A stretch of DNA of 64,000 bases from Ilumatobacter fluminis (GTDB taxonomy: Bacteria > Actinomycetota > Acidimicrobiia > Acidimicrobiales > Ilumatobacteraceae), in NCBI RefSeq assembly GCF_004364865.1, contig NZ_SOAU01000001.1, forward strand, positions 1,736,001 to 1,800,000, given 5' to 3'. A program made the position numbers and the translations under genes. The notes under the pieces are model-generated. The model made no database searches, was not told where the DNA came from, and saw only the letters and a program-made list of their open reading frames with translations. Shown piece by piece: positions 15,904-33,264 of the stretch. The stretch's first letter is position 1. Each line of letters opens with the position of its first letter.

Positions 15904-17595
15904 TCAGGAGCCCGAGATCGCCGTGGCGGAGTCGCGGAACCGCGTGCGCACGACGGCGCCGTACGCCGCAGGGTCGTCGTCGAGTCGGTCGATCTCGATC
16001 GAGCCGACATCCCCGAGGATGGCGTGGGCGACCGGGAAGCCGAGTGCCGCCGGCGGGACGACCTCGGCACTGTCGATGTCGACGACGAGCGTGCGTCCGT
16101 CGTCGTCGGCATGCACGGCGATCGTGCCGCCGTGACCGGCTCCGAGCAATGCTCCCGAGACGAGGCAGCGGAGGAGCTGCCGGGTGCGCGGCGCATCGAA
16201 CGGGACGCTGGTCGACGGATCGAGTGAGCTGCAATCGATGTCGACGGCGTGAGCGATCGCGATCGAGTCGAACTGTTTGAGGACCTGCTGGAGCACGGGC
16301 AACACCTCGGTCGACGCGTCGTCCTGGGGCTTCGCTGCCGTCAAGAGGTCGTCGACCATGGTCCCGAGTCGGGCAGCTGCGTCTCGGACGGTGTGGAGGG
16401 CGTCGCGGTCGGATTCGGTGAGTCGCGAATCGTCGATGAGCTCGGCGAAGCCGGCGATCGTGTGCAGCGGCGTCTTCAGCTCGTGGCTGAGCTCACCGAT
16501 GAGCTCCATCGTCGAGGCCAGCAGATCGCGCTCGCGTCGAGCCTCGGTCCGCTCCCGTTCGGCCGTCGTCAGACGATCGACGACGGCGGCGACGCTCGTT
16601 GCGATCATCTCGCATCGGTGCACCTGTCGGTCGCTCCACGAGCCCGGCTCGATGCGATTGAGGATGAGTGCGCCCCGGAACGTTCCATCGGTCGTCAACG
16701 GGAAGGCCAGGACCGACCGCACGCCATCGACCCCCCAGGTCGCGACGTCGGCGGCAGCTTCCGGCGGGGCGTCGGCGATGTCGTCGAGACGAACCGCCTT
16801 GCCGGCCAGCATCTGGCCGAGCGACCACTGCCAATGGTTGGAACTGACCCGTGCGCTGTCAGGAGCGAGCATGGTCGGCGGGAGCGGCTTGCTCTCGTCG
16901 ATCCAGCCGACGGCGAGCGAGGCGGTCCCGTCCTCGGGGTGCGCGACCAGCACGCTCGCCCGATCGGCGTGCACGGCGACGGCGAGTTCGCCCAGGATGC
17001 TGTGCAGCGTGCGACGGAGCGCGCGGTCGTCGGTCCGCACGAGTCGGAGTGCGAGTTCGGCTCCGGGGTCGTCGATGGAGTCCATCCGGAGCAGCGGAAC
17101 GCTGAACGCCGACGCGAGCGCGGCGGCGTCGTCGACGAGGGCCGTGATCGCCGGGTCGTCGGCGGGGTGGTCGGTGGTGAATGCCCAGATGAGGGCTCCC
17201 AGGGTCTGGCCGCCGCTCCGGATCGGAGCGTGCGCATACGTCGCCACGCCCTCACGCTCGAAGATCTCGCGTTCGATTCGGGCCTCGTCGGGCAAGTCGA
17301 CCGTCCGACCGAACATCGGTCCGGATGCCTCGAGCATCTGCCCGTACCAGTACGGGCGTTCCGAGCGTCGTTGGAAGGAGCCGCCCGAGGCCGGTCGGCG
17401 GAGCTGTGGAGCGTCGTCGCTGACCCACATCGAGACGACCTGAAAGGCGCCGGCGACGGGGAAGCGGAGCACGCCGAGTCGGCGCGGGCCGAGATGGGCA
17501 TATCGCTCACCGACCTGGGCCAGAAGCTGGGCGACGTCGGCATCGAGGCGTTCGTCGGCACCGGCAGCCAGGCGCAAGGCGATCTCGGCCGTCAT
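15904..17595 (-). CDS. GAF-HisKA protein with degenerate ATPase domain (kinase-like 1)
   Basis: About 563 residues: an N-terminal GAF-like region, a second GAF domain (about residues 200-345), a HisKA helix with an intact phospho-acceptor motif (LIGELSHELKTPLHTIAGF), and a shrunken HATPase-like domain. In the last domain the N-box asparagines are gone (RQLLRCLVSGALLGAG) and no DxGxG box is seen, so ATP binding is doubtful. It may act as a sensor, scaffold or phosphatase. ATG 17595 is preferred over GTG 17604. It is divergent from the response regulator, with an operator-like array (17657-17699) upstream. Confidence 0.85.
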   Translation of the reverse strand: MTAEIALRLAAGADERLDADVAQLLAQVGERYAHLGPRRLGVLRFPVAGAFQVVSMWVSDDAPQLRRPASGGSFQRRSERPYWYGQMLEASGPMFGRTVDLPDEARIEREIFEREGVATYAHAPIRSGGQTLGALIWAFTTDHPADDPAITALVDDAAALASAFSVPLLRMDSIDDPGAELALRLVRTDDRALRRTLHSILGELAVAVHADRASVLVAHPEDGTASLAVGWIDESKPLPPTMLAPDSARVSSNHWQWSLGQMLAGKAVRLDDIADAPPEAAADVATWGVDGVRSVLAFPLTTDGTFRGALILNRIEPGSWSDRQVHRCEMIATSVAAVVDRLTTAERERTEARRERDLLASTMELIGELSHELKTPLHTIAGFAELIDDSRLTESDRDALHTVRDAAARLGTMVDDLLTAAKPQDDASTEVLPVLQQVLKQFDSIAIAHAVDIDCSSLDPSTSVPFDAPRTRQLLRCLVSGALLGAGHGGTIAVHADDDGRTLVVDIDSAEVVPPAALGFPVAHAILGDVGSIEIDRLDDDPAAYGAVVRTRFRDSATAISGS

Positions 17596-17656
17596 GCGCT
17601 CCACGGCACCGACTCTGATCGAACAGCACCGTTATTGCAATTCGAAACCCGCCAAG

Positions 17657-18733: not shown

Positions 18734-19927
18734 TCAGGCCTTCGACGCGCCGCTGACGACGATGGCGTCGTCGCCACGGGCCGGGAGCGTGTGATCGTCG
18801 AAACGGATGGCGATGTCGAGATCGTCATCGTCGCGATGCGACGCTTCGATCGAGCCGTGGCCCGCGATCAGCGCTCGGGCCATGGGCATGACCGCCACCG
18901 ATCGGGCCGTGGCGTCGTCGGCACGGACCCGGACGTGCACGACACCGTCGGGAGCGAGCTCGACCCCGATGCGGTCACCAGGCGTCGCTGCCGTGATCAC
19001 ACCCGACAGGACGCAGTACATCACCTGGCGCACACGGGCGATCTCGGCGTGCACCGTGACCTCGTCGTTGCGATCGCCGAGCGTGAGCTCGACCAGCCGC
19101 TGTTCGCTCACCGGGGTGAGGTTGCACACGGTCTCGCCGACGACGAGCCCGAGCTCGACCGCTTCGTCGGGGACGAAGTCGCCGTTGGCCAGTGACAGCA
19201 GGTCATCGACCATCGTCAACAGGTTGCGGCCCTGGAACTGGATCTGGAACAGCGCTTCGCGATCGTGATCGGAGCGCTCGTCGAGCTCCATCAGTTCGGT
19301 GTACCCGAGGATGGCGTGCAGCGGGGTACGCAGCTCGTGGCTCAGGTGCGCCAGCATCTCGTCCTTCGCTCGGTTCGCCCGATCGGCCTCCTCGTAGGCC
19401 CGCCGCATGCTCGACTCGGCGCGATTGCGGACCAACACCACGCCGATCACCTGAGCGATCAGCCGGACGGTGAGGACGAGGTCGTCGCTCCACGGATCGC
19501 TCGGTGACCAGTAGTTGAAACCGATGAGGCCGATGCACTCGTCATTGACGATCATCGGCACCTGGAGCACGGCGCGCACGCCGAACGACGAGAACGACGC
19601 TTTCTCGGCCGAGGCCGCCACGGGCAACTGATCGAGGTCGGTCGCGGCGAGCACCTCGTTCCGCATCGCCATCTGGTAGCTGTACTCGAAGTCGGAAGAT
19701 CGCAGCCGCTGGATGACCGGTCGCTGCGGCACGACGTCACCTTCGGTCCACTCGTGGCTGTTCTCGAACGTGCCGTCGTCGTGGTAGAGCGTGATGTAGG
19801 CGCGTGGCGCCCCGGCCTCACGGGCGAGCAGCTGGAGCGCTTCTTCGACGGCATGCTGCACTTCCTCGCGAGACGCGCCGGCGAGCCGGATCGCCAGCTC
19901 GGCGGCGAGTTCGTGGGCGGGCGGCAT
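18734..19927 (-). CDS. GAF-HisKA protein with degenerate ATPase domain (kinase-like 2)
   Basis: About 397 residues: an N-terminal helix, a GAF domain (about 45-190), HisKA with an intact His (LAHLSHELRTPLHAILGYTEL), then a reduced ATPase-like region. There the N-box has become RVRQVMYCVLSGVITAAT and the G1 DxGxG motif is absent, so autophosphorylation is doubtful. It parallels the kinase-like protein at 15.9 kb in architecture and in the way it has decayed, suggesting duplication or shared selection. ATG 19927 (MPPAHELAAELAIRL) was chosen; the frame is open further upstream but would cross the operator-like repeats. It is convergent with the response regulator. Confidence 0.84.
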   Translation of the reverse strand: MPPAHELAAELAIRLAGASREEVQHAVEEALQLLAREAGAPRAYITLYHDDGTFENSHEWTEGDVVPQRPVIQRLRSSDFEYSYQMAMRNEVLAATDLDQLPVAASAEKASFSSFGVRAVLQVPMIVNDECIGLIGFNYWSPSDPWSDDLVLTVRLIAQVIGVVLVRNRAESSMRRAYEEADRANRAKDEMLAHLSHELRTPLHAILGYTELMELDERSDHDREALFQIQFQGRNLLTMVDDLLSLANGDFVPDEAVELGLVVGETVCNLTPVSEQRLVELTLGDRNDEVTVHAEIARVRQVMYCVLSGVITAATPGDRIGVELAPDGVVHVRVRADDATARSVAVMPMARALIAGHGSIEASHRDDDDLDIAIRFDDHTLPARGDDAIVVSGASKA

Positions 19928-20000
19928 GAGCAACACTCTGGCACGACATCGGTCCAACAGTGTTATGAATCGAGCGATCCTGACCACCATGAGAATCTTC

Positions 20001-20068
20001 TTGAGGTCACCTTGATATTCGGACGAGGCCGGCAACGCGCAGGTCCTTGATCCTGCCTTGATCGAGAA
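20001..20068. promoter_or_regulatory. Two pairs of 11-bp-spaced TTGAT half-sites (operator B)
   Basis: Pair 1: TTGAG at 20001 and TTGAT at 20012 (the second half-site continues ATTCGG). Pair 2: TTGATCCTGCC at 20047 and TTGATCGAG at 20058. Both pairs are spaced by 11 bp on the plus strand. They lie between the second kinase-like gene (start 19927) and the GT-C operon (start 20107, with its own TAGCGT at 20095-20100), so they could control both directions. Confidence 0.6.
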
Positions 20069-20106
20069 ACACACCGTGCTGATGCGCGGGCACATAGCGT
20101 GGTCAC

Positions 20107-23100
20107 ATGGCCGGGAGACGCGCGCGAGTCGATCTGCGCCTCGGCATCGCGCTCGTGATCACCGTGCTGTTCCACGGCGGGTTGTTGATCGTGGGTTCGT
20201 TCCGGTCGACGTACGACGCATACGTCCATCTGTTCTTCGGCGACCACTACGCCCGGTCGTGGTTCTCGAGTTGGGAACCACGCTGGTACACGGGCTTCAC
20301 CACGGTCAGTTATCCGCCCGGCAGCCACCAGCTCCTGGCGCTCTGGTCGAAGGTGCTCGACGACGGCACGGCGTTCATCCCGGTGATGCTCGGTGCGATC
20401 CTGCTCACGGTCATCGGGATCTTCCGCTACGCGAAACTGTGGGTCAGCGAACGGGCGGCCGGCTATGCCGCGATCCTGGCGGCCGTGTCGTCGTCGATCT
20501 CCGAGACGGCGCACGTGTTCGGCCAGCTGCCGACCCTGCTGTCACTCGGCATGCTCCTGAACGCCACCCCCTTCGTGTACCGGTGGGTGCGGTGGGGCGG
20601 CGGCGGTGCTCTCGCAGCGGCGGTCGTCTGCTCCGCGGGTACCACGGCGGCGCATCACGTCACGACCCTGTTCGGGTCGGTGTTCATCGTGGGCCCGGTG
20701 CTCGCGCTCGCCCTCGTCGAGGTGTTCCGGACCCCGCTCGACGACGAACCGTCCGGCCGACCGTCCGCGCTGTCGCGGGCGACGTGGTGGCCCGTCGTCG
20801 CACGCCGCCTGCGCCGTGTGCTGCCCGCACTGGTACGGACCTCGGTGTACGGCTTCCTCGTGCTCATCAGCCTGGTCTCGGTCGTGCTGCCGTACTGGCT
20901 GTGGAGCGCCTCCGACCCGATCACGCAGATCCCGATTCCGCACGCCAGCCGGGACAACTTCCTCGTCAACACCAACGCCGGACTCGTGTTCTGGGCGGTG
21001 CCGTGGGGCGTGATGCTGTTCGCCCTGCCGTACGCCTTGCTGCGCGGCGCCGTGTCGAAGGCCTGGCCGCTCGCCGCCTCATTGGCGCTGCTCACCCTGC
21101 TCGGTACCGGCGGGACGACCCCCATCCCGCGGATGATGCTCGGCGGCGCCTTCGAGATCTTGACCCTCGACCGATTCACGTTCTGGGCGACGATCCTCGT
21201 CCTGCCGTTCGCCGGCCGCCTCGTCGAGAGCCTGGTGCACGGGCGACTGGGCGACGTCCTCCGTCGCAACGTCGGGCGACGGGTCACCGTCGGGCTCCTG
21301 ACCGCGGGGGCCCTCGCCGTGCTCGCCATGGCGTTGTTCGCGTCGAGCCTCACGTCGTATCGGCCGTTTCAGCCCGAACCGATCGACATGGACCCGATCG
21401 TCACGTTCATCGAGAAGGACCAGCACGATCGGTGGCGCTACCTGACCTTGGGGTTCGGCGACCAGATGGCGTGGCTGTCGGCGCAGACGACGGCCGAAAC
21501 GGTCGACGGCAACTACCACTCGGCTCGTCGCCTGCCCGAGCTCACGACGACGCCGGTCGAACGGCTCGAAGGTGCCAAGTACAGCGGCGTGCCCGGACTC
21601 GGGTCGCTCCAGCAGTTCCTCGCGACGCCGGAGAAGTACCACCTGAAGTACGTCTTTTCGAACGACCAGTTCTACGACCCCCTGCTCTGGGCGAGCGGTT
21701 GGCAGCGCCTCGAGCCGCTCGAGAACGGGATCGCCGTGTGGCAACACGACGACGTCGAACCGCTGGCGGCCGGGCGGCTCCGCCTCGAACTGCCGATGTG
21801 GCAGCGTCTGCTGTGGGGCGTGTTGCCGATGACGGCGATGGTGTCGGCCTGGTGCTTCCTGATCGCGAATTTCCTCGGCGTCGACATCGGCCGTCGGCGC
21901 TACCCCCTCCCTGGCTTCGTCACGCGTTCGTACGCTGCGATCGACCGATGGCTGCTCGCCGCGTCGCAGCGGATCGGCGACGGTGACCAACGAGAGGACT
22001 GGAACCGGCTCGCGCGGCTGCGCGCGGCGGCCGCGGGTCGGGTCGCCCGTCCGGTCGGTGCCCGGCGTCGGGTCGTGCAGGCGACTGTCGTCGTCGTGAC
22101 CGCGCTGGTGCTCGCGGGAGCCGTTGCATACGTGCTGGTCGACCCGGTCGAGGACACACCGGCGGAGACGGTCTACTCGTACTACGACGCGCTCGATCTC
22201 CGTCAGACCGACGGTGCCTACGCGCTCCTCGACCCGGCGTCGCGTCCGACCTTCACGCAGTACCTGACCGAACGATCCGTGGTGAACGGCCTCGTTGCGT
22301 CGTATGCCCGACTCCAGTCGATGACGTCGACGCAGGTCGATCGCGACGACGACACGGTCGTGGTCGAATCTGAACTCGTGTACGTGACGTCGCTGTCGGA
22401 ACACGTCGTCACGTCGGTCGACGTCCTCCACCTGACCGACGACGGATGGCGGTTGGAGTACCAGCCGCCCGATCCGACGATCCCGCCCGACCAGTTCGTC
22501 CGACGTGCCGGCGTCGACTACCTCTCGCAGGGTCGCCGTCAGGTCGGTGATCAGCCGACCGCGTACCAGGACGTGCTCGACCGGCCGGAGATCAGCATCT
22601 TGTCGGCGTCGCTGGTTCGGGTCGACGAGCAGCTCAGCGTCGTCGGCGAGGTCCGCAACGACGACGTCGACCCGGGCTACGTCACGGTGACGGCCGAGTT
22701 GCTCGACGCCGCTGGTGAGGAACTGACCGACTACGCAGCGGCGACCGGTGCGGTCCATACCGCACTCCCCGGTGAGATCGTGCCGTTCCGGATCGACTTC
22801 GAAGGGGTCGCCGGGCTCGTCGAGGTCGACGGTGAACTCGTCGCCGAACAGGTCGAGTTCGAGGCCGGGGCCACGACGGCGTTGGCGCTCGACGTCGAGC
22901 GGATCGCCGAGGTGATCGTCTCCGCGAAGGCGGTCGTCACCGACACCGACCTCGGCCGCCAACTGACGGCTCACGACCTGACGATCGTCGACGACGTGCT
23001 GGCGGGCCAGCTGCGCAATGATGGCGTCGCCGAGGCGACGGTGCCCCACGTGTTCGTCACGCTGCGCGACGACGACGGGATCGTGCGGTGGGTGGCCGAT

Positions 23101-23319
23101 CACTATGTGTCCGAGGCGGTGCGGCCGCAGCGCTCGGGCCCGTTCGAGATGCCGTTGCCGACCCCGGACGACATCGAGACGATCGAGGTGCCGATCACCA
23201 CCTACGCGAACAGTCTGCGGGTCGGGCGTGTCTTCGACGACCGTGCCCTGTTCCGGAGCGGCACCGACTGGCCGTCGCTCGACGTCATGGTCATCGACTT
23301 CACGAGGTCGGCATCGTGA
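20107..23319 (+). CDS. Large GT-C-type membrane protein with extracellular domains
   Basis: A 1070-residue protein. The first 620 residues hold about 10-12 membrane helices of GT-C glycosyltransferase type, with an acidic first loop (STYDAYVHLFFGDHYARSW) and WYTGFTTVSYPPGSHQLLAL; this resembles the 6-pyruvoyl-tetrahydropterin-synthase-related membrane family. A further membrane helix (about 660-680) precedes roughly 390 residues of beta-rich exported sequence with an NTF2-like region and FxLYD-like segments (LSVVGEVRNDD, VLAGQLRNDGV). TAGCGT at 20095-20100 sits six bases before the ATG. It is the first gene of an operon with two four-base overlaps. Sugar donor and acceptor unknown. Confidence 0.8.
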   Translation: MAGRRARVDLRLGIALVITVLFHGGLLIVGSFRSTYDAYVHLFFGDHYARSWFSSWEPRWYTGFTTVSYPPGSHQLLALWSKVLDDGTAFIPVMLGAILLTVIGIFRYAKLWVSERAAGYAAILAAVSSSISETAHVFGQLPTLLSLGMLLNATPFVYRWVRWGGGGALAAAVVCSAGTTAAHHVTTLFGSVFIVGPVLALALVEVFRTPLDDEPSGRPSALSRATWWPVVARRLRRVLPALVRTSVYGFLVLISLVSVVLPYWLWSASDPITQIPIPHASRDNFLVNTNAGLVFWAVPWGVMLFALPYALLRGAVSKAWPLAASLALLTLLGTGGTTPIPRMMLGGAFEILTLDRFTFWATILVLPFAGRLVESLVHGRLGDVLRRNVGRRVTVGLLTAGALAVLAMALFASSLTSYRPFQPEPIDMDPIVTFIEKDQHDRWRYLTLGFGDQMAWLSAQTTAETVDGNYHSARRLPELTTTPVERLEGAKYSGVPGLGSLQQFLATPEKYHLKYVFSNDQFYDPLLWASGWQRLEPLENGIAVWQHDDVEPLAAGRLRLELPMWQRLLWGVLPMTAMVSAWCFLIANFLGVDIGRRRYPLPGFVTRSYAAIDRWLLAASQRIGDGDQREDWNRLARLRAAAAGRVARPVGARRRVVQATVVVVTALVLAGAVAYVLVDPVEDTPAETVYSYYDALDLRQTDGAYALLDPASRPTFTQYLTERSVVNGLVASYARLQSMTSTQVDRDDDTVVVESELVYVTSLSEHVVTSVDVLHLTDDGWRLEYQPPDPTIPPDQFVRRAGVDYLSQGRRQVGDQPTAYQDVLDRPEISILSASLVRVDEQLSVVGEVRNDDVDPGYVTVTAELLDAAGEELTDYAAATGAVHTALPGEIVPFRIDFEGVAGLVEVDGELVAEQVEFEAGATTALALDVERIAEVIVSAKAVVTDTDLGRQLTAHDLTIVDDVLAGQLRNDGVAEATVPHVFVTLRDDDGIVRWVADHYVSEAVRPQRSGPFEMPLPTPDDIETIEVPITTYANSLRVGRVFDDRALFRSGTDWPSLDVMVIDFTRSAS

Positions 23320-24662
23320 GCGAGGACGACGTGCCCGAACCGATGGACGTGTCCGAGCCCGACGGGTCGACGGTCGTCGCCGATCCGACCGATCCGGCTC
23401 TGGCTCCGGCTTCTCGGGAAACCGTCGGCTGGCGACGACTCGTGGCGACCCGACCCCGGCGGTTGCTGCTCGTGGCGGTCGCTGTCGTCGCGTTCGTCGC
23501 CGTCGGCTCGCTCGCGATCGGCGTGCTTCGCGGCGAGCCGTCCGTGTGGACGGCGCCGACCGAGACCTTCGACCTCGATGGGCCGGAGACGATCGGGGCC
23601 GGCGACGCATGGAATCTCGTCGTCGACCGACCGGTCACCGACGCGACGCTGACCGTCACCGGCCCCACCGGCAGCACCACGGTCGAGCTGGCCGGAACCT
23701 TCGACGACGTCACGGTCGACGGGTACCCGACCGAGCAGAGCGGTCACCTCACCGCGATCGTCCGCACGGCCGACGGCGTCGGCACGGCCTCGGTCACGAT
23801 CGAGCCGGGGGAGGCGGTCGACGGCATCACGCCGCTCGCCGGCCCACGGTCGATGACGGCCGACCGGGAGCACTGGACCATGGTGACGGCGTTCGCTCGC
23901 GACCGGTTCGGGAACGCGGTGACCGACGGGACGATCGTCGAGGTCATCGCACGTCACCCCGACGGCTCGGTCGAGTCGATCGAGGCGCCGGTGCAACACC
24001 TGCTCGCAGCCGTTCGGGTGTTCTCCGAGACGCTGGCAGGCCGGACGACGCTGCGCGTCGACGTCGACGGGGCGACCGGCGACGAGGTCGAGGTGCTCGA
24101 GGTGCCGGGGCCACCGATCTCGGTCGATCTGCTGGAGCCGACGATGCCGCTGCGCGCCGACGGTCGGCAGTTGGTCGAGATCCGCAGCGACGTCCTCGTC
24201 GATCAGTTCGGCAACGAACTGCTCGACGGCACGGTCGGCGTGGTGCAACTGTTCGGTCCGAGCGGCCGGGGCACGCTGCGAACGGTCACGATCGACGGGC
24301 GCGCCGAGTTCGTCGTCGAGGCGCCGTCCACGCCCGGATCGCTGTCGCTCGAACTGACCGTCGACGGGGTGCGGAGCGACTCACTCGTGCTCAACTTCGG
24401 CGCCGACGTCACCGCGCTCCCGGTCGAGGTCGACCGAACAGGCGACGCCGTGATGCTCACGATCGGGCCGGTCCTCACCGAGCTCGGCGGGTTCGTTCCC
24501 GACGGCACGATCGCTCGCATCCTCGGCGTCGACCACGAACTCGAACTCGACGTGGTCATCGCCGACGGCATGGGCGTTGCGCTCCTCGACCCGGTTCCGG
24601 ATGATCTCGTCGCTGTCGACGTCTCCGTGCTCGGCGCTCGTGAACGGGTGGAGATCCCGTGA
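23316..24662 (+). CDS. Membrane-anchored Ig-like/invasin-type surface protein
   Basis: A 448-residue protein with an acidic cytoplasmic N-terminus, one membrane helix (about residues 50-70), then beta-rich modules with repeated phrases typical of Big_1/Ig-like folds (FARDRFGNAVTDGTIVEV and VLVDQFGNELLDGTVGVV). No catalytic motif seen. GTG at 23316 overlaps the upstream stop by four bases (GTGA) and its own stop overlaps the next start, so translation of the three genes is coupled. Probably a structural or adhesive partner of the neighbouring membrane protein and GH-like enzyme. Confidence 0.78.
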   Translation: MSEDDVPEPMDVSEPDGSTVVADPTDPALAPASRETVGWRRLVATRPRRLLLVAVAVVAFVAVGSLAIGVLRGEPSVWTAPTETFDLDGPETIGAGDAWNLVVDRPVTDATLTVTGPTGSTTVELAGTFDDVTVDGYPTEQSGHLTAIVRTADGVGTASVTIEPGEAVDGITPLAGPRSMTADREHWTMVTAFARDRFGNAVTDGTIVEVIARHPDGSVESIEAPVQHLLAAVRVFSETLAGRTTLRVDVDGATGDEVEVLEVPGPPISVDLLEPTMPLRADGRQLVEIRSDVLVDQFGNELLDGTVGVVQLFGPSGRGTLRTVTIDGRAEFVVEAPSTPGSLSLELTVDGVRSDSLVLNFGADVTALPVEVDRTGDAVMLTIGPVLTELGGFVPDGTIARILGVDHELELDVVIADGMGVALLDPVPDDLVAVDVSVLGARERVEIP

Positions 24663-26386
24663 TCCAGGTCAACCGCGCCAAGCGGCTGATCGCCGCCGTC
24701 GGTCTCGTCGTCGTGGCTCTCGTCGGGCTGTTGGTGCTGCGCCAGGTCGCCGGCACGCTGCTGACGGCGGCGTCCGGAGCCGACCCGGAGTCGATCTTCA
24801 ACGACACCCCACCTGCACCGGCCGAGGTGAGCGAAGGCATCCGGTGGCTCCCCGACGCCAACGAGGGACGTCAGATGGAGCCCGCCACCCGAGACGACAT
24901 CACCGACGCCTATAGCCGGGCGGTTGCGGCCATCGATCGCGCCGGCCGGGGCGACGGGTCCGCTCCGATCTCCGACTACCTGAGTGGGCCGGCCCTCGCA
25001 CAGGCCGAGCAGATGATCGAGGGAGACGAGAACGTGGCCTCGGTCGCGACCCTCATGGTCGAACAGGAGCTGCGCCTCGACTTCTACAGCGACGACGGCT
25101 CCGTCGTCGCGATCGGCGTTCCGTTCGCCGACGTCGTCCGCATGATCGACGACGACCAGCAGCGCCGTACCGTCGTGTCGACCGTCGAAGAACGTCGATT
25201 CGTGATGCTGCTCGAGGACGGCAACTGGCGCGTCCAGCAGATCGAAAGCGTGTCCGTCGAACCCGTCGCCGCCGGTGACGGCGGCGTGCCGTTCGACACC
25301 CGGCTCGACGGCGTCAACGTGACGAGCGCGGCGTCGTTCGACCCCACCTGGCGCAGCTTCGACCCGCAGATCGGCGCCCGAGAGCTCGACATCGCCGTCG
25401 GCTACGGGTTCGACAGCGTGCGGGTGTTCGTGGCCGGGCCGGAGTTCGGCGAGATCGACGTCGAGGCGGTCGAGCAGTTCCTCGACCTGGCAGCGAATCG
25501 TGACCTCGGCGTGGTCGTCACCCTGTTCGACGGGAGCGCCGATCACTCCGTCACGAAGTGGGCGGACGACCGTCGCTATCTGGACGACGTCGTCGAGCCG
25601 ATCGCCGGCCATCCGGCGATCGTGCTCTGGGACGTCAAGAACGAGCCAGACCTCGACGACGATCGCTCCGGGGGAGCGGCGGTCGTCGACGCATGGCTCG
25701 AACGTGCTGTCGCCGGCGTTCGAGCGTTCGACGAGACGACACCGATCACCGTCGGATGGTCGAACGCCGGTGAGGCTGCACGAGTCGCGAACGTGGTCGA
25801 CGTGGTGTCGTTCCATCACTTCACCACCGCCCACGAGTTGCGCGAGCGCCTGGCGTCCCTCGATGAGGTCGTCGACCGCCCGGTGCTCGTCAGCGAGTAC
25901 GGGCGACCCGAGTACGTCGGGGTCGTCCGCGGTGACCAACCCGCTGCCCAGGCCGACAGGGTCGCCGAGCTCCGGGAAGCCGCCTCGGCCGCAGGCGCGG
26001 GATCGATGGTCTGGCAGCTCCGCGACCCTGCTGACGCCGTCGACATCGGATATGTGGCGACCCGCGCCTCGATGTCGTACGGCCTCCTTCGGGCCGACGG
26101 GACCGAACGACCGGTCGCAGCGGTCTTCGATGACGAAGCGACGCCGCGTGGTCCGACGCCGGTCGAACGTCTGCGCTCGTTGCTACCGCTTGTCATCGTG
26201 GTCTCGATCGGGTTGTCCATGGGCGGCGCCGTGTGGTGGTGGGTCCGACGGGGCCGTCGCTCCGACGGTCGGGACCCGGACGAGTCGGTTGCCCCGGACG
26301 ACGCGCAGGCAGACGACGACACCCTCTCCGACACGCACATGGACGACGACACCGACGACGGCGATCCGCCGACCGCGCCGTCTTGA
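24659..26386 (+). CDS. Membrane-bound GH5-like (beta/alpha)8 glycoside hydrolase
   Basis: A 575-residue protein with an N-terminal membrane helix (about 9-29), an NTF2-like region (about 75-200), a TIM-barrel domain (about 215-500), a second membrane helix (about 512-530) and an acidic, disordered tail. Clan GH-A catalytic residues are plausible: acid/base E329 in WDVKNEPD and nucleophile E413 in VSEYGRPE. Several barrel landmarks are short, so activity should be regarded as probable only. It overlaps the upstream gene by four bases. Its stop codon lies inside the operator-like repeat before the STAS gene. Likely trims or remodels a surface polysaccharide. Confidence 0.78.
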   Translation: MIQVNRAKRLIAAVGLVVVALVGLLVLRQVAGTLLTAASGADPESIFNDTPPAPAEVSEGIRWLPDANEGRQMEPATRDDITDAYSRAVAAIDRAGRGDGSAPISDYLSGPALAQAEQMIEGDENVASVATLMVEQELRLDFYSDDGSVVAIGVPFADVVRMIDDDQQRRTVVSTVEERRFVMLLEDGNWRVQQIESVSVEPVAAGDGGVPFDTRLDGVNVTSAASFDPTWRSFDPQIGARELDIAVGYGFDSVRVFVAGPEFGEIDVEAVEQFLDLAANRDLGVVVTLFDGSADHSVTKWADDRRYLDDVVEPIAGHPAIVLWDVKNEPDLDDDRSGGAAVVDAWLERAVAGVRAFDETTPITVGWSNAGEAARVANVVDVVSFHHFTTAHELRERLASLDEVVDRPVLVSEYGRPEYVGVVRGDQPAAQADRVAELREAASAAGAGSMVWQLRDPADAVDIGYVATRASMSYGLLRADGTERPVAAVFDDEATPRGPTPVERLRSLLPLVIVVSIGLSMGGAVWWWVRRGRRSDGRDPDESVAPDDAQADDDTLSDTHMDDDTDDGDPPTAPS

Positions 26387-26420
26387 TCCAATGTTGATCT
26401 TCGGCGGCGGGCCCCTTGAC
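26383..26420. promoter_or_regulatory. 11-bp-spaced TTGAT repeats (operator C)
   Basis: TTGATCCAATG at 26383 and TTGATCTTCGG at 26394, spaced by 11 bp, then TTGAC at 26416, exactly two more 11-bp steps away. The array starts inside the stop codon of the GH-like gene and ends 55 bp before the STAS start. TTGATnTTCGG is shared with the arrays at 17689 and 20012. Confidence 0.6.
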
Positions 26421-26475
26421 GTACGGCGAGCAGGCTGGTCGCAACACCCGATCGGGTGCGTTCCAGGACACGACC

Positions 26476-26796
26476 ATGACGATCGACGCCGCCAACCATC
26501 GCCCAGCTCCACCCACCGGGTGCTGCAGCATCACCGACCAGCTCGACGGTCGCTACGTGGCGCCGAGACGGTTCGATGCGTACGAGGTCGAGCCGTTCCT
26601 CCACCGTCTTGCGGCCGAGCCGGGCCATCTCGTCGTCGACTGCTCCGAGGTCGAGTTCCTCGACCTGTCGGCCCACCGGGCACTTTTCGGTGCGGTGCGT
26701 CGGGGCAGCGTGACCGTGCTCGATCCGTCGGCTGCGACGCTGCTGACGTGTGATCTCGTCGCTGCCGCATCGGAACACGTCGGCATCGCCGCATGA
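26476..26796 (+). CDS. STAS domain protein
   Basis: A 106-residue protein with an anti-sigma-antagonist fold: LVVDCSEVEFLDLSAHRALF gives the conserved strand and the helix N-terminal Ser where such proteins are phosphorylated. STAS proteins act as switch partners in signalling. ATG 26476 (MTIDAANH) has an upstream AGGA and was preferred to TTG 26416, which lies in the operator. Its stop overlaps the start of the hybrid kinase (ATGA), making it the first gene of the H-NOX operon. No cognate anti-sigma kinase of the RsbW type is visible. Confidence 0.78.
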   Translation: MTIDAANHRPAPPTGCCSITDQLDGRYVAPRRFDAYEVEPFLHRLAAEPGHLVVDCSEVEFLDLSAHRALFGAVRRGSVTVLDPSAATLLTCDLVAAASEHVGIAA

Positions 26797-29084
26797 GTTT
26801 CAGCGTGCCGGACACGCCCGGGACGCCGCCGTCGGCCACAATGGATGACGTGCCCATGCCGGATCTCCCGTGGCGACGGTTTTTCGAGGACGCACCGGTC
26901 CCACTGTCGATCATCGATGCGTACGGCCGTCAGGTGGCGTGCAACGAGGCGTACGCCACGCTGTTCGGCTACACCGTCGACGAGATGCTCGCCCTCGACG
27001 TCGGGCGGATCACTCGTCCCGAGGATCACGAGTGGTCCACGACCTACCTGATGCGGCTGACGAACGGCGACCTCGAGTCGTTCGAGACCGACAAGTGGTA
27101 CGTGCATCGTGACGGTACCGAGTTCGTCCAGCACCTGAGCGTCGCCCGCCTGGCCGACGAGGACGGGCTGTGCGAGTACCTGCTCGGCGTCTTGTTGCCG
27201 CCGTCGCGCGGGCCGGTGGTCGGCGGAGAGACCGCGGCGGAGCGCCTGCTCGCCTACACCGATGGTTCGATCACCCTCGTCGGAGGCGACGGCCGGATCA
27301 AGTTCAGCAAGGGCGAGCTGGTCGAGGTGGCCGGCTATCCGACCACGTTCTGGGCCGACCGCGACATTCGCGATCTGTTCCCGGGCGGCGAGTTCGCGCA
27401 CCTGGTCGCCGACCACCACGAATTCCTCGACACCCCAGGGGCGTCGTTCGAGACCGAGGTCGAGCTCGAGCGCGGTGACGGCCGTCGCCAACTGAGCTCG
27501 GTCAAGGCGTACAACTGCACCGACGACGACCTGCTCGACGGCTTCGTGCTCACCACCCGCGACATCACCGACGAGCGTGCACATCTCGACGACCTCGCCA
27601 AACGGCACCAGACCGCCGAAGAGGTCGCCGATGCACAGACGAGACTCCTGGCGACGGTCAGCCACGAGCTCCGTAATCCGTTGCACGCCGTTCGAGGACT
27701 GGCCGAGATCTTGACCCGCGAAGACCTGCCGCCGCGTGCGGCCGAACTGGCCGACGGACTCGTCCGGCAGCTGTCCGGGTTGACCCACGTCACCCAAGAT
27801 CTGCTCGATGCCGCTCGCCTCGACGCCGGCAAGGTCGACATCTTCCCCATCCCGACCGAGCTCGACGGGCTGGTCGGCGATGTCGTCGGCCTCGGTAACG
27901 CAGCAGCGATCGACAAGCCGGTGACGGTGAGTCACCGGATCGCGCGCGACGTCCCGGAGTGGGTGATGGCCGACGACGGCCGCCTCCGCCAGGTGCTCTC
28001 CAACCTCGTCGGCAACGCCGTCAAGTTCACCGAGTCCGGCACGGTCCAGATCGTGGTCCGCCGCGAAGGCGAGAACGCGCTCGTGTTCTCGGTCATCGAC
28101 ACCGGCGCCGGCATCCCCGCCGACGAACAGGCCGCAGTCCTCGAGCCGTTCCGCGTCGCATCGACAGCGGGCGAGGCGCGCGGCGCGGGGCTCGGTCTGT
28201 CGATCGTGCAGCGCCTCGTGACCGCCATGGGCGGTCGGGTGACCCTGACCAGCAAGGTCGGGGAGGGCACTCGCTTCGACGTCGTCATCCCGCTCCGCAC
28301 CGCCAAGCCACCCGAGACGCAGCAGACCGACGAGCTCCCGCCCGGCCTGCGAGTCCTCGTCGTCGAGGACAACCCCGTCAACCAGCAACTGGCGCGGAGC
28401 CAGCTCGACCGACTGGGGGTCGAGGCGGTGATCGTCGATCGTGGTGAGGCCGGCCACGCCATGCTGCTCGACCCCGACGCCGGCCGCTTCGACGCCGTTT
28501 TCATGGACCAGCAGCTGCCGGGCTGGAACGGCACCGAGGCGACCGAACACATCCGGGCCGAAGGCGGGGACCTCGCGACGATCCCGATCATCGGGCTGTC
28601 TGCGTCGGCCTCGACCGCCGATCGAGACGCGTTCCTGGCGTCGGGCATGACCGACTTCGTGGCGAAGCCGGCGTCGCTCGACGACCTCAGCTCGGCGCTC
28701 AAGCGAGCTGTCTTCGAGACGGCGGCCCCTGCGCGAGTCGAGACCGCGGCGCCGGAAGAGTCACCGGCCGACGAGACACCTGCACTCGACGAGGCGGTGC
28801 TCGGGAAACTGTCCGACGAGCTGGGTTCGCCCGACATCGTGCGTGACCTCGTCGGGACGTTTCTCGACGAGCTCGACGCCCGGGTGCTGACGATCGTCGG
28901 CGACGACGAGACCGAGTCCCGTCGTGCCGCACACACGCTCAAGTCGAGCGCCCGCCTGCTCGGGGCGTCGGCGCTCGCCGACCGGTGTGCGAATATCGAA
29001 CAGGACGGCGGGCCCGCCGACGACATCGAGCAGCTTGCTCGACGGACCGAGACGGCCTTCCGGGACTGGCTGGCAGCGTCATGA
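26793..29084 (+). CDS. Hybrid histidine kinase (PAS-PAS-HisKA-HATPase-REC-HPT)
   Basis: A 763-residue, probably cytoplasmic phosphorelay kinase with no membrane helices. PAS 1 (about 28-135) and PAS 2 (about 150-262) precede HisKA with phospho-acceptor H291 (ATVSHELRNP). The HATPase is complete: N-box RQVLSNLVGNAVKF, G1 VIDTGAGI, G2 GAGLGLSIV. The receiver has VVEDNPVNQQ, the Asp in VFMDQQLPG and Lys in VAKPAS. The C-terminal HPT has its His in AAHTLKSSARLLGA. It is the only fully intact kinase in the island, coupled upstream to STAS and downstream to a 29-residue ORF and H-NOX. It is the natural partner of the H-NOX sensor. Confidence 0.95.
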   Translation: MSFSVPDTPGTPPSATMDDVPMPDLPWRRFFEDAPVPLSIIDAYGRQVACNEAYATLFGYTVDEMLALDVGRITRPEDHEWSTTYLMRLTNGDLESFETDKWYVHRDGTEFVQHLSVARLADEDGLCEYLLGVLLPPSRGPVVGGETAAERLLAYTDGSITLVGGDGRIKFSKGELVEVAGYPTTFWADRDIRDLFPGGEFAHLVADHHEFLDTPGASFETEVELERGDGRRQLSSVKAYNCTDDDLLDGFVLTTRDITDERAHLDDLAKRHQTAEEVADAQTRLLATVSHELRNPLHAVRGLAEILTREDLPPRAAELADGLVRQLSGLTHVTQDLLDAARLDAGKVDIFPIPTELDGLVGDVVGLGNAAAIDKPVTVSHRIARDVPEWVMADDGRLRQVLSNLVGNAVKFTESGTVQIVVRREGENALVFSVIDTGAGIPADEQAAVLEPFRVASTAGEARGAGLGLSIVQRLVTAMGGRVTLTSKVGEGTRFDVVIPLRTAKPPETQQTDELPPGLRVLVVEDNPVNQQLARSQLDRLGVEAVIVDRGEAGHAMLLDPDAGRFDAVFMDQQLPGWNGTEATEHIRAEGGDLATIPIIGLSASASTADRDAFLASGMTDFVAKPASLDDLSSALKRAVFETAAPARVETAAPEESPADETPALDEAVLGKLSDELGSPDIVRDLVGTFLDELDARVLTIVGDDETESRRAAHTLKSSARLLGASALADRCANIEQDGGPADDIEQLARRTETAFRDWLAAS

Positions 29085-29170
29085 CCGCAACAACTGGACC
29101 GACCGGGCCGACGGAACGAACAGATCACATCATCATCGACCACATCACCGGGGAGCGTGTCACGCCATGA
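29081..29170 (+). CDS. 29-residue coupled small ORF
   Basis: ATG at 29081 overlaps the kinase stop (ATGA) and its own stop at 29168-29170 overlaps the H-NOX start (ATGA), so it fills the gap between the two genes exactly. The predicted peptide is MTATTGPTGPTERTDH followed by IIIDHITGERVTP, Thr-rich then hydrophobic. It may be a real small protein or a coupling device that carries ribosomes from the kinase to H-NOX. No family recognised. Confidence 0.45.
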   Translation: MTATTGPTGPTERTDHIIIDHITGERVTP

Positions 29171-29700
29171 AAGGTGTCATTTTCAACGTCGTCCAAGAAG
29201 TCGTCGAGGACGTCTTCGGACCCGACGCCTGGGACGAGATCGTTCGTCGCTCGGGCGCCGACGGCGCCTACACCTCACTCGGGAGCTACCCCGACGCCGA
29301 GCTGGGCTCGCTCGTGACCGCCGCCGCCGACGTCGCCGGCGTCACCGAACCCGAAGCGCTCGTCCTCGTCGGCCGCAAGGGGTTCGCCCGGCTCGGTGGT
29401 CGACACGCAGAGCTCCTCGACGGTGCCGACACCTGGATGGATGTCCTCGCCCAGCTCGACGGCATCATTCACCCCGAGGTCCAGAAGATCTACCCCGACG
29501 CCGAGGTGCCGTCGTTCCGAACGACGACCGGCGACCGCACGATGCAGCTCCGGTACGAATCGAGTCGAAACCTGTGCCCGCTCGCCGAAGGACTCATCCT
29601 CGGCATGGGCGATCATTTTGGCACCGACCTCACCGTCGACCACCTCGAATGTGTGCATCGCGGTGACGACTCGTGCGTGCTCGAGGTCGTCGAACGATGA
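29167..29700 (+). CDS. H-NOX haem nitric oxide sensor
   Basis: Haem-binding gas sensor of 177 residues (MKGVIFNVVQEVVEDVFG start). The proximal haem ligand is H102 (QLDGIIHPEV) and the propionate-binding YxSxR motif is Y130-S132-R134. Around the distal position (CPLAEGL) I see no tyrosine, which fits an NO-selective rather than oxygen-binding type. C137, H159, C162 and C170 have the spacing (22, 3, 8) of the zinc/redox cluster reported for gammaproteobacterial H-NOX. It is coupled by ATGA overlaps to the small ORF before it and the kinase remnant after it. Expected to gate the hybrid kinase. Confidence 0.92.
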   Translation: MKGVIFNVVQEVVEDVFGPDAWDEIVRRSGADGAYTSLGSYPDAELGSLVTAAADVAGVTEPEALVLVGRKGFARLGGRHAELLDGADTWMDVLAQLDGIIHPEVQKIYPDAEVPSFRTTTGDRTMQLRYESSRNLCPLAEGLILGMGDHFGTDLTVDHLECVHRGDDSCVLEVVER

Positions 29701-30443
29701 GCGCCGGACCGGCGCCGGCCGGGAGCGACCCGCCGATCGACGAGCGGATCATCCGGCTCGAAGAACGACTCGATCGAGAGCGCAAGGCCCGACGACAGGC
29801 GGAGATGATCGCCGAGCGCGGCATGCGCGACCTGTGGGAGATCAACCGAGAACTCCAAGAACGGGTCGACGACCGCACGGCACAGGTCGGCCGATTGCTC
29901 GCCGGCTACGAACGAGCACGATCGGCCTGGTCGGACGTGATGACCGACGAACTCGAACGCGCTCGCAGCACGGTGCACGCCGGCGGTGACGTCGACGAGG
30001 CGTTCGCTCTGGTCAACGCGTTGGCAGCCTTCGCGCGGCGACAGTTCGTCGACGAGGCGTTCTCGGAGCGCCCGGCACGGGTCGCCGCCGACATCCTCCA
30101 GCGGTGGCAGCGCCCGACCGCTCGTCACGGACAGTTGCTCACCACCGACGCGGACACCACCGACGCCGAGGTGTGCACCCGCTGGGATTGCGTGATCGCG
30201 CTCTGCGAGGTGGCGATCGCTTCGATCGTCCATGCCTGTGAGTCCGGCGTGGTCGCCGTCCGGTTCACGGTCGACCGCCCTCACCTCGCGGTCACGATCG
30301 AGCACCCACCAGCGACCGACGACATCGGTCGTGCGGCGCTGGCGGTGGCGGCGAGGATCATCCGGCGCACGACCGATGACGCGGACGGCACCTGCCGCTG
30401 GGATGACGGCCGAGTCGACGCCACACTGCCCATCACGGGATAG
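29697..30443 (+). CDS. Coiled-coil protein with histidine-kinase-like remnant
   Basis: A 248-residue protein. An N-terminal coiled coil (IIRLEERLDRERKARRQAEM) leads to a helical region placed like a HisKA dimerisation domain but without the phospho-acceptor His (SDVMTDELERARS). The C-terminal ATPase-like region has no N, G1 or G2 boxes. It resembles the other two kinase-like proteins of the island but is more decayed, so it probably works by protein contacts, for instance with H-NOX or the hybrid kinase. ATG 29697 overlaps the H-NOX stop by four bases. It is the last gene of the operon. Confidence 0.75.
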   Translation: MSAGPAPAGSDPPIDERIIRLEERLDRERKARRQAEMIAERGMRDLWEINRELQERVDDRTAQVGRLLAGYERARSAWSDVMTDELERARSTVHAGGDVDEAFALVNALAAFARRQFVDEAFSERPARVAADILQRWQRPTARHGQLLTTDADTTDAEVCTRWDCVIALCEVAIASIVHACESGVVAVRFTVDRPHLAVTIEHPPATDDIGRAALAVAARIIRRTTDDADGTCRWDDGRVDATLPITG

Positions 30444-30491: not shown

Positions 30492-31652
30492 TCAGGCGGC
30501 GGTGACCGGACCGATGTCGTCGGTGTCGAGATCGGGATCGAGCACGGTCCCGGCCGCGAGCGGCGCCGGGCGACCGAAGAAGTAGCCCTGGCCGAGTCGG
30601 ACGCCGATCTCGATCAGGAACGCTGCCTCGGCGGCGGTCTCGATGCCCTCGGCGACCAGCTCGGCGCCTGTAGTCGCGGCGAACTCGATCAGCCCCGAGA
30701 CGACCACCTGTCGTGCCGGATCGGTGTCGATGCTGCTGACGATCTCACGATCGATCTTGATCAGATCGGGCTGGACACCGACGAGCTGCACGAGCCCGGC
30801 GTATCCGGCGCCGACGTCGTCGGCGGCGAGACGGCAGGTCGGCGGCATCTGGGCTCGAAGCGTCGCGGCATCGTGTGCATCGAACGCGGCGTTCTCGGTG
30901 ATCTCGAGGACGAGGGGTCGTCCGGTTCCGTGCACGAGCTCGCCGAGTCGGGGATCGAGCGCAGCGGCGGGGGAGACGTTGACGTGGACCGGTACCGACA
31001 CGGCGCCCGATGCGAGGTCGTCGGTCACCGCTGCCACGATCTCGAGTTCGAGCTCGACCCGACGGTCGTGATGGTCGGGGGTGTGGAACACGTCGACCGG
31101 CGACGTGCCGTCGTCGAATCGCACGAGCGCCTCGGTCGCCTCGACCTCGCCACACGTCATGTCGACGATCGGCTGATAGTGCATCGTGAAACGGCGATGT
31201 GCGATCGTGTCGCGGTACCAGTCGTCGCGCTCTGCCGCGACGCGATGTGCGGCCACACGATTCTGGCGCAGATGTGCTCGGAGGCGAGCAACCAGTTCGT
31301 CGGCGTGGACCGGCTTGCACACGAAGTCGTCCGCTCCGATCGACAACGCCCGAACGCGGGAGGCCACGTCTTCCAGCCCGCTCACCACGATCGTGGGCAG
31401 CGCGGCGAACATCGGCGACCGGCGGATGTGCTCGATCACCTGGAAGCCGCTCATTCGCGGCATCAGCGCATCGACGACGAGCGCATCGGGACGCACCTCG
31501 CTCACGAGGGACACGGCCTCGGCGCCGTCGTGGCCGGCGTGCACGTCGAATCCGGCACGCTCCAGCATGGCGGTCATCGCAACCCGATGCACCGCGCTGT
31601 CGTCGGCGATGACGATGACGGGCCGACGCTCGTTGGAAGTCTCGTTGATCAC
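30492..31652 (-). CDS. REC-EAL cyclic-di-GMP phosphodiesterase
   Basis: A receiver domain (about residues 10-125: IADDSAVHR, Asp in ALVVDALMPRMSG, Lys in VCKPVH) is fused to an EAL domain. Catalytic residues appear intact: EAL in ATEALVRF, Asn in VHVNVSP, Glu in LVLEITE, the DD pair in LAADDVGAGYAG, Lys in IKIDRE, Glu in AEGIET and Gln in LGQGYFFGRP. It should hydrolyse c-di-GMP under phosphorelay control. The domain order and length (386 residues) match HnoB, the output of the H-NOX/HnoK system of Shewanella and Vibrio. Start taken as GTG 31652 (VINETSNERRPV). It is convergent with the H-NOX operon. Confidence 0.93.
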   Translation of the reverse strand: MINETSNERRPVIVIADDSAVHRVAMTAMLERAGFDVHAGHDGAEAVSLVSEVRPDALVVDALMPRMSGFQVIEHIRRSPMFAALPTIVVSGLEDVASRVRALSIGADDFVCKPVHADELVARLRAHLRQNRVAAHRVAAERDDWYRDTIAHRRFTMHYQPIVDMTCGEVEATEALVRFDDGTSPVDVFHTPDHHDRRVELELEIVAAVTDDLASGAVSVPVHVNVSPAAALDPRLGELVHGTGRPLVLEITENAAFDAHDAATLRAQMPPTCRLAADDVGAGYAGLVQLVGVQPDLIKIDREIVSSIDTDPARQVVVSGLIEFAATTGAELVAEGIETAAEAAFLIEIGVRLGQGYFFGRPAPLAAGTVLDPDLDTDDIGPVTAA

Positions 31653-31674
31653 GACAGCGACTCTGCTCGCCAAA

Positions 31675-31776: not shown

Positions 31777-33264
31777 ATGGACGTGAAACGAATCGTCTTG
31801 ACTCTGTCGCTCGCTGCGTCGAGCCTCGGCGTCGCCGCCACGTCGCAGGCGGCCGCCCCCTCCCTCGCCGAACGTTGCCCGAGCGGGCTGTTCCAGGTCA
31901 TCGCCGGCCAGCTGGCCGAGTTCGACGTCGGCTCGTCGACGTACCTCCCGATGGGAGCTGATCAGTCGAACTACAACGCGATGGGCCTCAATCCCGCCGA
32001 CGGCTTCCTCTACGCCATCCGGGGTGACACCCTCCTCCGGATCGACGACAACGGGACCGTCGTCACCTTGGGAACCGTGGACATCGTGCCCGGTTCGTAC
32101 ACCGGCGACTTCGGCGACGACGGCCGCCTCCACGTGTCGCGCGGCGGCAACGACTGGTATGCGATCGACGTCACCACGCTCGAGGCGACTCGCCTGAGCG
32201 GCTTCTCCCAGAACTACGGCGTCGCCGACATCGCGAACGTCTCGGGCACGTTCTACGGCGTCAGCGGCGGCGGGACCCTGTGGAGCTTCGACGTGACGAC
32301 CGAGACCGCCACGAACCTCGGCGCCGTCGCCGGCATCTCGGGTGCGAACAAGGCGTTCGGTGCGGCATGGACGACCGCCGGCGCGAACCTGTACGTCGGC
32401 CGCAACAGCGGGCAGATCTATCAGATCACCGGGTTCAGCACCGGCAACCCGGTCGCCACCCAGATCGCGACCAGCCCGTCGACGAACTCGAACGACGGTG
32501 CCTCGTGCCCGTACGCTCCGCCGCCGCCGGGCCTGCCCGACGTCGACGGTCCGATCCCCGAGGTCGCCCCGAGCACCGAGGACGGCTTGGCCGCCGCAGC
32601 CGAGTACGAGTTGACCTTCGAAGCACCTCAGTTCGCCGCACCCGACGCGGGTCTCGGCGAGGGTGCTGCATGTGCGGCCACGATCTCCGAAGACCAGCGG
32701 CCTCGCGACGCTGTCGCCACCACGCAGGTGACGACCCGGACCGTCCTCGTCGACGACACCTTCGACGGTGACGTCGCCGGATGGAACGTCATGGCGGGCA
32801 GCTGGCTCGTCGAGAACGGCTCGTACCGCCAGCTGAACGACTGCGAGTACGACCTGATGTCGGTGCTCACCACCCACGTCGTCGATCACTTCGACCTGGA
32901 GGTCACCTTCTCGTCGCCGACCGTGCCCAACCACGGTGGCGTGGTCTTCAACGTCAGCTCGACCGATTCGCGCAGCGGTGCGATCGTTGTCGATCTCGCC
33001 GACGACGGCGAGACGCTCCGCTGGGGCCGGTACGACGAGCTCGGCTACTACCAGAACATCGGGTGGGACTTCATCCCCGCTCCCGCCGCCGGTCAGCCGG
33101 TGACGCTGAAGATCGAGTCACGCGGTGACCAGTACACGATCATCTACCAGGGCAACACCGTCGTCACCGAGACCACTGAGAACCCGGGCGGCATGGTCGG
33201 CCTCATCTCGACCCTGTCGCAGGTCGACTTCCACGACGTCGAGCTCGCGGCGGTGCCGTCGTGA
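31777..33264 (+). CDS. Secreted protein with beta-propeller-like and laminin-G/GH-type domains
   Basis: A 495-residue exported protein. The signal peptide ends near residue 26 (TSQAAA). The first half has repeated YAI/LYV-type strands with DUF6923-like propeller character (LNPADGFLYAIRGDTLLRID). A Pro-rich, then Ala/Glu-rich linker (about 245-320) leads to a C-terminal jelly-roll of the concanavalin type (LVDDTFDGDVAGWNVMAGSW, FDLEVTFSS, GGVVFNVSSTDSRSG). No catalytic residues can be assigned. Its stop overlaps the start of the lipoprotein gene downstream (GTGA). Confidence 0.8.
   Translation: MDVKRIVLTLSLAASSLGVAATSQAAAPSLAERCPSGLFQVIAGQLAEFDVGSSTYLPMGADQSNYNAMGLNPADGFLYAIRGDTLLRIDDNGTVVTLGTVDIVPGSYTGDFGDDGRLHVSRGGNDWYAIDVTTLEATRLSGFSQNYGVADIANVSGTFYGVSGGGTLWSFDVTTETATNLGAVAGISGANKAFGAAWTTAGANLYVGRNSGQIYQITGFSTGNPVATQIATSPSTNSNDGASCPYAPPPPGLPDVDGPIPEVAPSTEDGLAAAAEYELTFEAPQFAAPDAGLGEGAACAATISEDQRPRDAVATTQVTTRTVLVDDTFDGDVAGWNVMAGSWLVENGSYRQLNDCEYDLMSVLTTHVVDHFDLEVTFSSPTVPNHGGVVFNVSSTDSRSGAIVVDLADDGETLRWGRYDELGYYQNIGWDFIPAPAAGQPVTLKIESRGDQYTIIYQGNTVVTETTENPGGMVGLISTLSQVDFHDVELAAVPS

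Follow-up and report, generated by a model that had tools for sequence, protein, structure and literature searches.

The window, the 64,000-nucleotide stretch of the Ilumatobacter fluminis genome analysed here, carries genes in the order STAS-like protein, PAS-HisKA-HATPase-REC-HPt kinase, H-NOX, 248 residue open reading frame (ORF), and convergent REC-EAL. Specifically, i) the STAS-like protein (26416..26796, + strand), which falls just below the Pfam cut-offs and whose start codon is uncertain, overlaps the start of the hybrid kinase; ii) the hybrid kinase (26793..29084, +; 763 residues), the presumed partner, has domains assigned by Pfam and catalytic motifs identified by eye; iii) the H-NOX gene (29167..29700, +; 177 residues) is supported by translation, Pfam, phmmer, and a structural model, and is of the NO type by residue (L139); iv) the 248 residue ORF (29697..30443, +), whose ATG overlaps the H-NOX stop codon (ATGA), encodes by alignment and model a degenerate histidine kinase or predicted pseudokinase, with a coil over residues 14-94 followed by a catalytic-domain-like part; and v) the convergent gene (30492..31673, - strand; Pfam) encodes a REC-EAL response regulator, a predicted c-di-GMP phosphodiesterase. 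The order hybrid kinase, H-NOX, coil ORF recurs at L029 (where the hybrid kinase is cut by the contig end), L030, L032, L003/L110, and L007/L113. REC-EAL homologues are present in the L112 and L114 regions, the L114 H-NOX being zinc-less; a search of the short same-genus contig L110 returned a receiver match only and no EAL.

The H-NOX gene is a single open frame in translation, with Cys only at residues 137, 162, and 170, and His at 159. Pfam HNOB matches residues 2-159 (E 9.3e-34, 117.1 bits against a cut-off of 25.5), and all elements of the H-NOX haem motif are present: the proximal haem ligand His102 (codon 29470..29472, +), Pro115, and the haem propionate motif Y130-x-S132-x-R134 (29554..29568, +). 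By phmmer, residues 1-173 align with the H-NOX of Shewanella oneidensis (4u99, 2kii), chains that rank among the nearest relatives of solved structure, and the three Cys and the His fall at matching positions. The protein modelled with AlphaFold2 (mean pLDDT 81.7) has the H-NOX fold, matching 4u99 with a VIA Z of 22.4 and an rmsd of 2.1 over 175 aligned residues. Residue 139, five after the motif Arg and a position that we take to be that of the distal Tyr of the O2-sensing type (Tt Tyr140), is Leu in the window protein, and is L, F, V, or I in all 107 of 107 aligned H-NOX rows. The absence of a distal Tyr fits the description of NO-type H-NOX in PMC12329717, and the window protein thus appears to be an ordinary NO-sensor-type H-NOX, predicted to bind haem. 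Our search of the open-access literature found no paper treating H-NOX together with Ilumatobacter.

The sequence-only reading had proposed that C137, H159, C162, and C170 are spaced as in characterised zinc-site H-NOX proteins, and the alignment bears this out. The codons for Cys137 (29575..29577), His159 (29641..29643; the presumed fourth ligand), Cys162 (29650..29652), and Cys170 (29674..29676), all on the + strand and identified by sequence and alignment, are in register with the Shewanella ligands; the 137/159/162/170 spacing equals 139/161/164/172 in S. oneidensis (PMC7108781) and 138/160/163/171 in Caulobacter crescentus (PMC12329717), where zinc in the group 3 H-NOX is consistent with a site of Cys138, His160, Cys163, and Cys171. 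PMC7108781 splits 598 relatives into four groups, with the motif of three Cys plus His or Gln in groups 2 and 3, and the window protein has this motif at its fixed spacing. Among 136 aligned H-NOX rows, most of them from a search with patterns from zinc-site proteins which favours the site (it gave 391 relatives, the best 80 of which are the named loci), the three Cys occur together in 103, are all missing in 32, and are partial in one (L016). The rows include genes fetched twice (the first 107 represent 103 different genes); L012, whose C-terminus is cut, was dropped before the three-Cys count, as were L018 (a fragment from the N-terminus), L002 and L109 (which repeat the window locus), and L010 (a weak partial match), and L028, a 135 residue frame with a TGA, lies outside the counted rows. 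Of the 103 three-Cys rows, 61 have His as the fourth ligand, 38 have Gln, and 4 have Glu. That the three Cys are kept or lost jointly in 135 of the 136 rows is as predicted for one metal site and not for chance, and the three Cys and His159 of the window H-NOX, judged by homology, very probably bind zinc. At L007, L011, and L084 the three zinc Cys are replaced together (G, G, T), and the adjoining coil kinase keeps its H-box.

An intact site in an actinobacterium had also seemed worth remarking; intact it is, but hardly unusual. In the less biased family-based class and phylum draws, counting the window and only complete C-termini, 11 of 16 Actinomycetota rows have the three Cys, L016 has two, and four have none, several of these rows coming from close relatives (L013/L014; L017/L019/L020); in Pseudomonadota the site is present in 8 and absent in 22 of the best-scoring 30 loci, drawn from matches in 103/398 genomes. 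Moreover, a Mycobacterium sp. H-NOX, actinobacterial and bearing the zinc motif like that of the window, was already listed in zinc-site group 3 in the Figure 1 legend of PMC7108781 in 2020, so the intact site is expected. All six of our Mycobacterium/Mycolicibacterium loci (L054, L062, L072, L079, L086, and L087) have the CHCC ligand set and are 39-44% identical to the query. The coil ORF of L062 also matches the EAL query, so the partner there is a larger c-di-GMP protein.

The same reading had suggested common descent of the module. The window protein clearly shares its ancestry with other H-NOX proteins; descent from Proteobacteria is not shown, since the window H-NOX falls in an actinobacterial clade and 22 of the best-scoring 30 Pseudomonadota loci have no such site. 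In a quick tree, for which the four site columns were removed from the alignment of 107 rows and a short search was run with no outgroup and no AU test, the long branches L003, L026, and L045 being flagged, it lies in a starred clade of nine (seven Actinomycetota and two unlabelled), and we reject a recent transfer from Proteobacteria on this grouping. The same tree requires the three-Cys state to change four times and the fourth ligand to change fifteen times. Vertical descent is not established either, because H-NOX is patchy in both genus (3/10 genomes, the window's own included) and family (8/221); among sampled Actinomycetota it is rare (9/396 genomes versus 103/398 in Pseudomonadota).

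The zinc site may have an older history. A C...C-8-C pattern recurs in V4R proteins, C-26-C-8-C in DmpR and MsvR compared with C-25-C-8-C in the window H-NOX, so the site may predate H-NOX, and its presence is no pointer to a proteobacterial origin; if V4R ancestry is real, the zinc site is older than H-NOX itself. In DmpR zinc is held by Cys151, a Glu, Cys177, and Cys185 (PMC7264223); the Glu is printed there as Glu172, which does not match the aligned DmpR/MopR-like sequences, where a Glu precedes the second Cys by three residues. The methanogen regulator MsvR, also a V4R protein, conserves Cys206, 232, and 240 and binds DNA in a redox-dependent manner, and substitution of Cys206 allows binding without reductant (PMC3729527). 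V4R proteins (the DmpR/MopR/PoxR sensors and MsvR) bind aromatics or control DNA binding, unlike H-NOX, and the H-NOX profile found no match in the V4R loci L116, L119, and L130.

We consider it only slightly less than an even bet that the zinc site serves only as a structural staple, has no sensing role, and goes back to a common ancestor of H-NOX and V4R/TRAPPC3-like domains. Consistent with this, i) in 14 genomes chosen for having a zinc-site H-NOX, the zinc segments of all 14 such proteins are matched by Pfam's V4R model (8 of the 14 above the Pfam cut-off), but none of nine zinc-less H-NOX is at E<=1, a contrast that is partly built in because the model rewards, and its score is driven by, those very cysteines; ii) the model of the window H-NOX matches TRAPPC3 structures over residues 36-177 with a VIA Z of about 10, and zinc in archaeal TRAPPC3 and PoxR is described as tethering a sheet to a helix (PMC10933270); and iii) the cysteine spacing is close to that of DmpR and MsvR. 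On the other hand, the window segment scores 23.5 bits against a V4R cut-off of 31 and so is not a family member by that measure, the L030 H-NOX is likewise below the cut-off, hhalign of H-NOX against three V4R rows is weak (24 columns, probability 4%, E 0.01), and zinc is dispensable for the fold, given zinc-less H-NOX proteins in a similar operon of the same order (L007, L011). One of the nine zinc-less proteins, L153, has a TRAPP match below threshold (E 0.055); DmpR and PoxR are absent from the 50 fold matches listed for the window H-NOX model; and a V4R search of the window's own genome returned no match besides the H-NOX. Shared ancestry with V4R, a lead drawn from motif spacing and a TRAPPC3-like fold, is likely but falls short of proof, and a purely structural role differs from the reading we prefer below only in denying a possible one-disulfide input.

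A stronger claim, that the site makes this protein a dual sensor of NO and oxidation, finds no support in that form, since the published route uses a fourth Cys which the window H-NOX lacks. Oxidation activates the Vibrio cholerae and Caulobacter proteins (PMC7108781, PMC12329717). Oxidised Vibrio H-NOX is described as having Cys174-Cys182 and Cys149-Cys177 disulfides, Cys177 being no zinc ligand, and the shift of C149 towards C177 as the movement proposed to reach the glycine hinge (PMC7108781); the Caulobacter paper hypothesises two disulfides among its four Cys (PMC12329717). By spacing, Vibrio residues 149/174/177/182 correspond to window residues 137/162/165/170, and residue 165 is Arg; none of the 103 zinc-site rows has a Cys at 165. 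The Cys at position 114 in three Caulobacteraceae copies (L102 twice, and L105) is Val in the window protein. With three Cys in all, where the published switches use four, a two-disulfide switch is impossible in the window H-NOX, and the full published oxidation switch is excluded. A weak redox response is possible, because partial oxidation by diamide partly activated Caulobacter H-NOX, the authors thinking that one disulfide had formed (PMC12329717). Exactly three Cys are found in 27 of the 103 zinc-site rows (including the window, L003, L006, L029, L030, L033, L034, and L037), so redox sensing cannot be assigned from the motif alone, and zinc site and cysteine switch are now separable; a fourth Cys is present in the neighbours L032 (Cys147) and L031 (Cys31).

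That oxidation of the zinc cysteines nonetheless switches the window H-NOX, instead of or besides NO, we regard as somewhat unlikely. The activation of both characterised proteins by oxidation speaks for it, as does the partial activation by a presumed single disulfide, which a three-Cys protein could imitate, and so does MsvR, where cysteines of nearly equal spacing are involved in redox-dependent DNA binding (PMC3729527); against it, the hinge-directed disulfide of the two that Vibrio makes from four Cys is C149-C177 (PMC7108781), whose second partner is Arg in the window, and a fourth Cys is found nowhere else in the protein, not even at the Caulobacteraceae position. For group 3, oxidation sensing has been put to the test once, in Caulobacter, where the H-NOX inhibits its kinase only after cysteine oxidation, the NO-bound form not doing so (PMC12329717); for that reason an NO signal cannot be assumed for the window system either. 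A structural role for the zinc is more likely, with a one-disulfide sensor as the most that the site could form.

The gene immediately downstream departs further from the characterised systems. A Pfam scan of the 248 residue ORF found no match, and neither the window copy nor that of same-genus L003 has a HisKA or HATPase match at E<=1; both domains are matched in the coil ORFs of L029, L030, L031, L032, L033, and L084, and GAF with GGDEF or PAS instead in the larger coil ORFs of L045 and L068 (first 330 residues scanned). In alignment the H-box His, N-box Asn, G1, and G2 are lost from the window and L003 copies alike. The window ORF therefore lacks the phospho-acceptor His and N, G1, and G2 boxes of an HnoK-type kinase, and its product is predicted to be unable to phosphorylate. 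The coil, which lies directly 3′ of the H-NOX and could be the trait that defines the partner, is widely shared: in 68 of the 80 named loci, the best of 391 relatives found with zinc-site patterns, the first 66 residues match a stretch that starts within about 100 nucleotides of where the H-NOX frame ends, and in the other 12 of these 80 there is no coil match at E<=1e-3. A model of the protein shows the long coil (residues 14-94) and a domain matched by Foldseek to histidine kinases, the 50 matches listed comprising histidine kinases and one phytochrome, although the fold is partly imposed by the input alignment, in which the eight remaining rows are all kinase-like. The C-terminal part is weakly conserved against other H-NOX neighbours, and identity between the window and same-genus copies is 37% for the coil ORF, 47% for the H-NOX, and 58% for the hybrid kinase.

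The loss of all four catalytic motifs, the weak C-terminal conservation, and the 37% identity would suit a decaying pseudogene, the H-NOX then acting directly on the hybrid kinase, but we think this quite improbable, as the frame is open with coding-like G+C by codon position, the start overlaps the H-NOX stop, the coil is conserved, and a second open and likewise degenerate copy exists in another species of the genus. Indeed, both zinc-site operons of the window's genus (G000 and G005, genus g1) carry a degenerate coil kinase, whereas G1194 and G1195 (g13, same family; the H-NOX sequences of L032 and L030) carry a motif-complete one, a natural contrast in two genera between similar operons with complete and degenerate coil kinases. 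The L006/L112 locus, from another family of the order, indicates either that degeneracy extends beyond one genus or that decay occurred separately. A minus-strand coil ORF at L112 (starting at reverse-strand offset 5360) ends early, keeping the H-box His and losing the N-box Asn.

Taken together, we favour, at roughly even chances, a reading in which a zinc-site NO-type H-NOX signals through a dead-kinase coil adaptor to a hybrid kinase, an HPt domain, and a response regulator. One zinc ion would be held by the three Cys and His159, tying helix G to the C-terminal sheet in a mainly structural role, and under oxidants at most one disulfide could form, C162-C170 being the likeliest. When NO binds at the His102 haem, the two subdomains would move relative to each other, as they do in characterised H-NOX, and the shift would be read by the coil of the degenerate kinase, which may dock on the H-NOX and serve as an adaptor for the PAS-HK-REC-HPt kinase encoded upstream. 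That kinase probably carries the signal; phosphate would then pass via HPt to a response regulator, for which the convergent REC-EAL is a plausible candidate, and so change c-di-GMP. In the systems studied so far, H-NOX inhibits an active kinase; here the coil partner is predicted to be inactive, and the adaptor route is the simplest working model. A copper nitrite reductase, considered as a local source of NO, scored at best 39.3 bits in the window's own genome against a cut-off of 296.3. The wider proposition, that H-NOX in this genus of the Ilumatobacteraceae has given up inhibiting an active kinase and works through a dead adaptor, bound to it by the conserved coiled coil and gating a hybrid kinase/phosphorelay, and also has a three-Cys, single-disulfide redox input, we offer tentatively and think unlikely as a whole.

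RetS and other repurposed histidine kinases are kinase-like proteins that act on another kinase by contact. The protein of 29697-30443 is likewise kinase-like and proposed to act on another kinase, but is short and paired with an H-NOX; the fold matches listed for its model include a RetS-GacS co-complex. Our search of the open-access literature found no H-NOX system acting through a dead kinase. Among comparable systems, Caulobacter H-NOX/HnoK has the same zinc-ligand spacing and an adjoining kinase gene (PMC12329717), the H-NOX belonging to group 3, where an actinobacterial protein is listed as well (PMC7108781); it differs in having four Cys and an active HK-REC partner (PMC12329717), compared with three Cys, a degenerate coil partner, and a separate hybrid kinase here. 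The Vibrio and Shewanella proteins share the fold, the haem His, and the three zinc Cys with the window H-NOX (PMC7108781; 4u99), but the Vibrio protein makes its second disulfide with an additional Cys, C177, and has Gln in place of the fourth-ligand His, and the Vibrio/Shewanella partner HnoK is active and phosphorylates HnoB (PMC7108781), unlike the degenerate coil partner of the window.

Two further GAF-HisKA proteins (15907-17604 and 18737-20095, both on the - strand) have no HATPase match by Pfam at E<=0.001. Between these and the operon, 20107-26386 contains ORFs of 1070, 524, and 575 residues, the last with a cellulase-like match, and at L113 a by-eye comparison shows a similar order and start of the ORFs before the H-NOX, with glycosyltransferase- and flippase-like ORFs after it, hinting at a polysaccharide locus. 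On the other side, a DUF6923 protein (31777-33264) lies beside the operon, and L030 and L032 have ORFs that resemble it by eye close to their own H-NOX operons.
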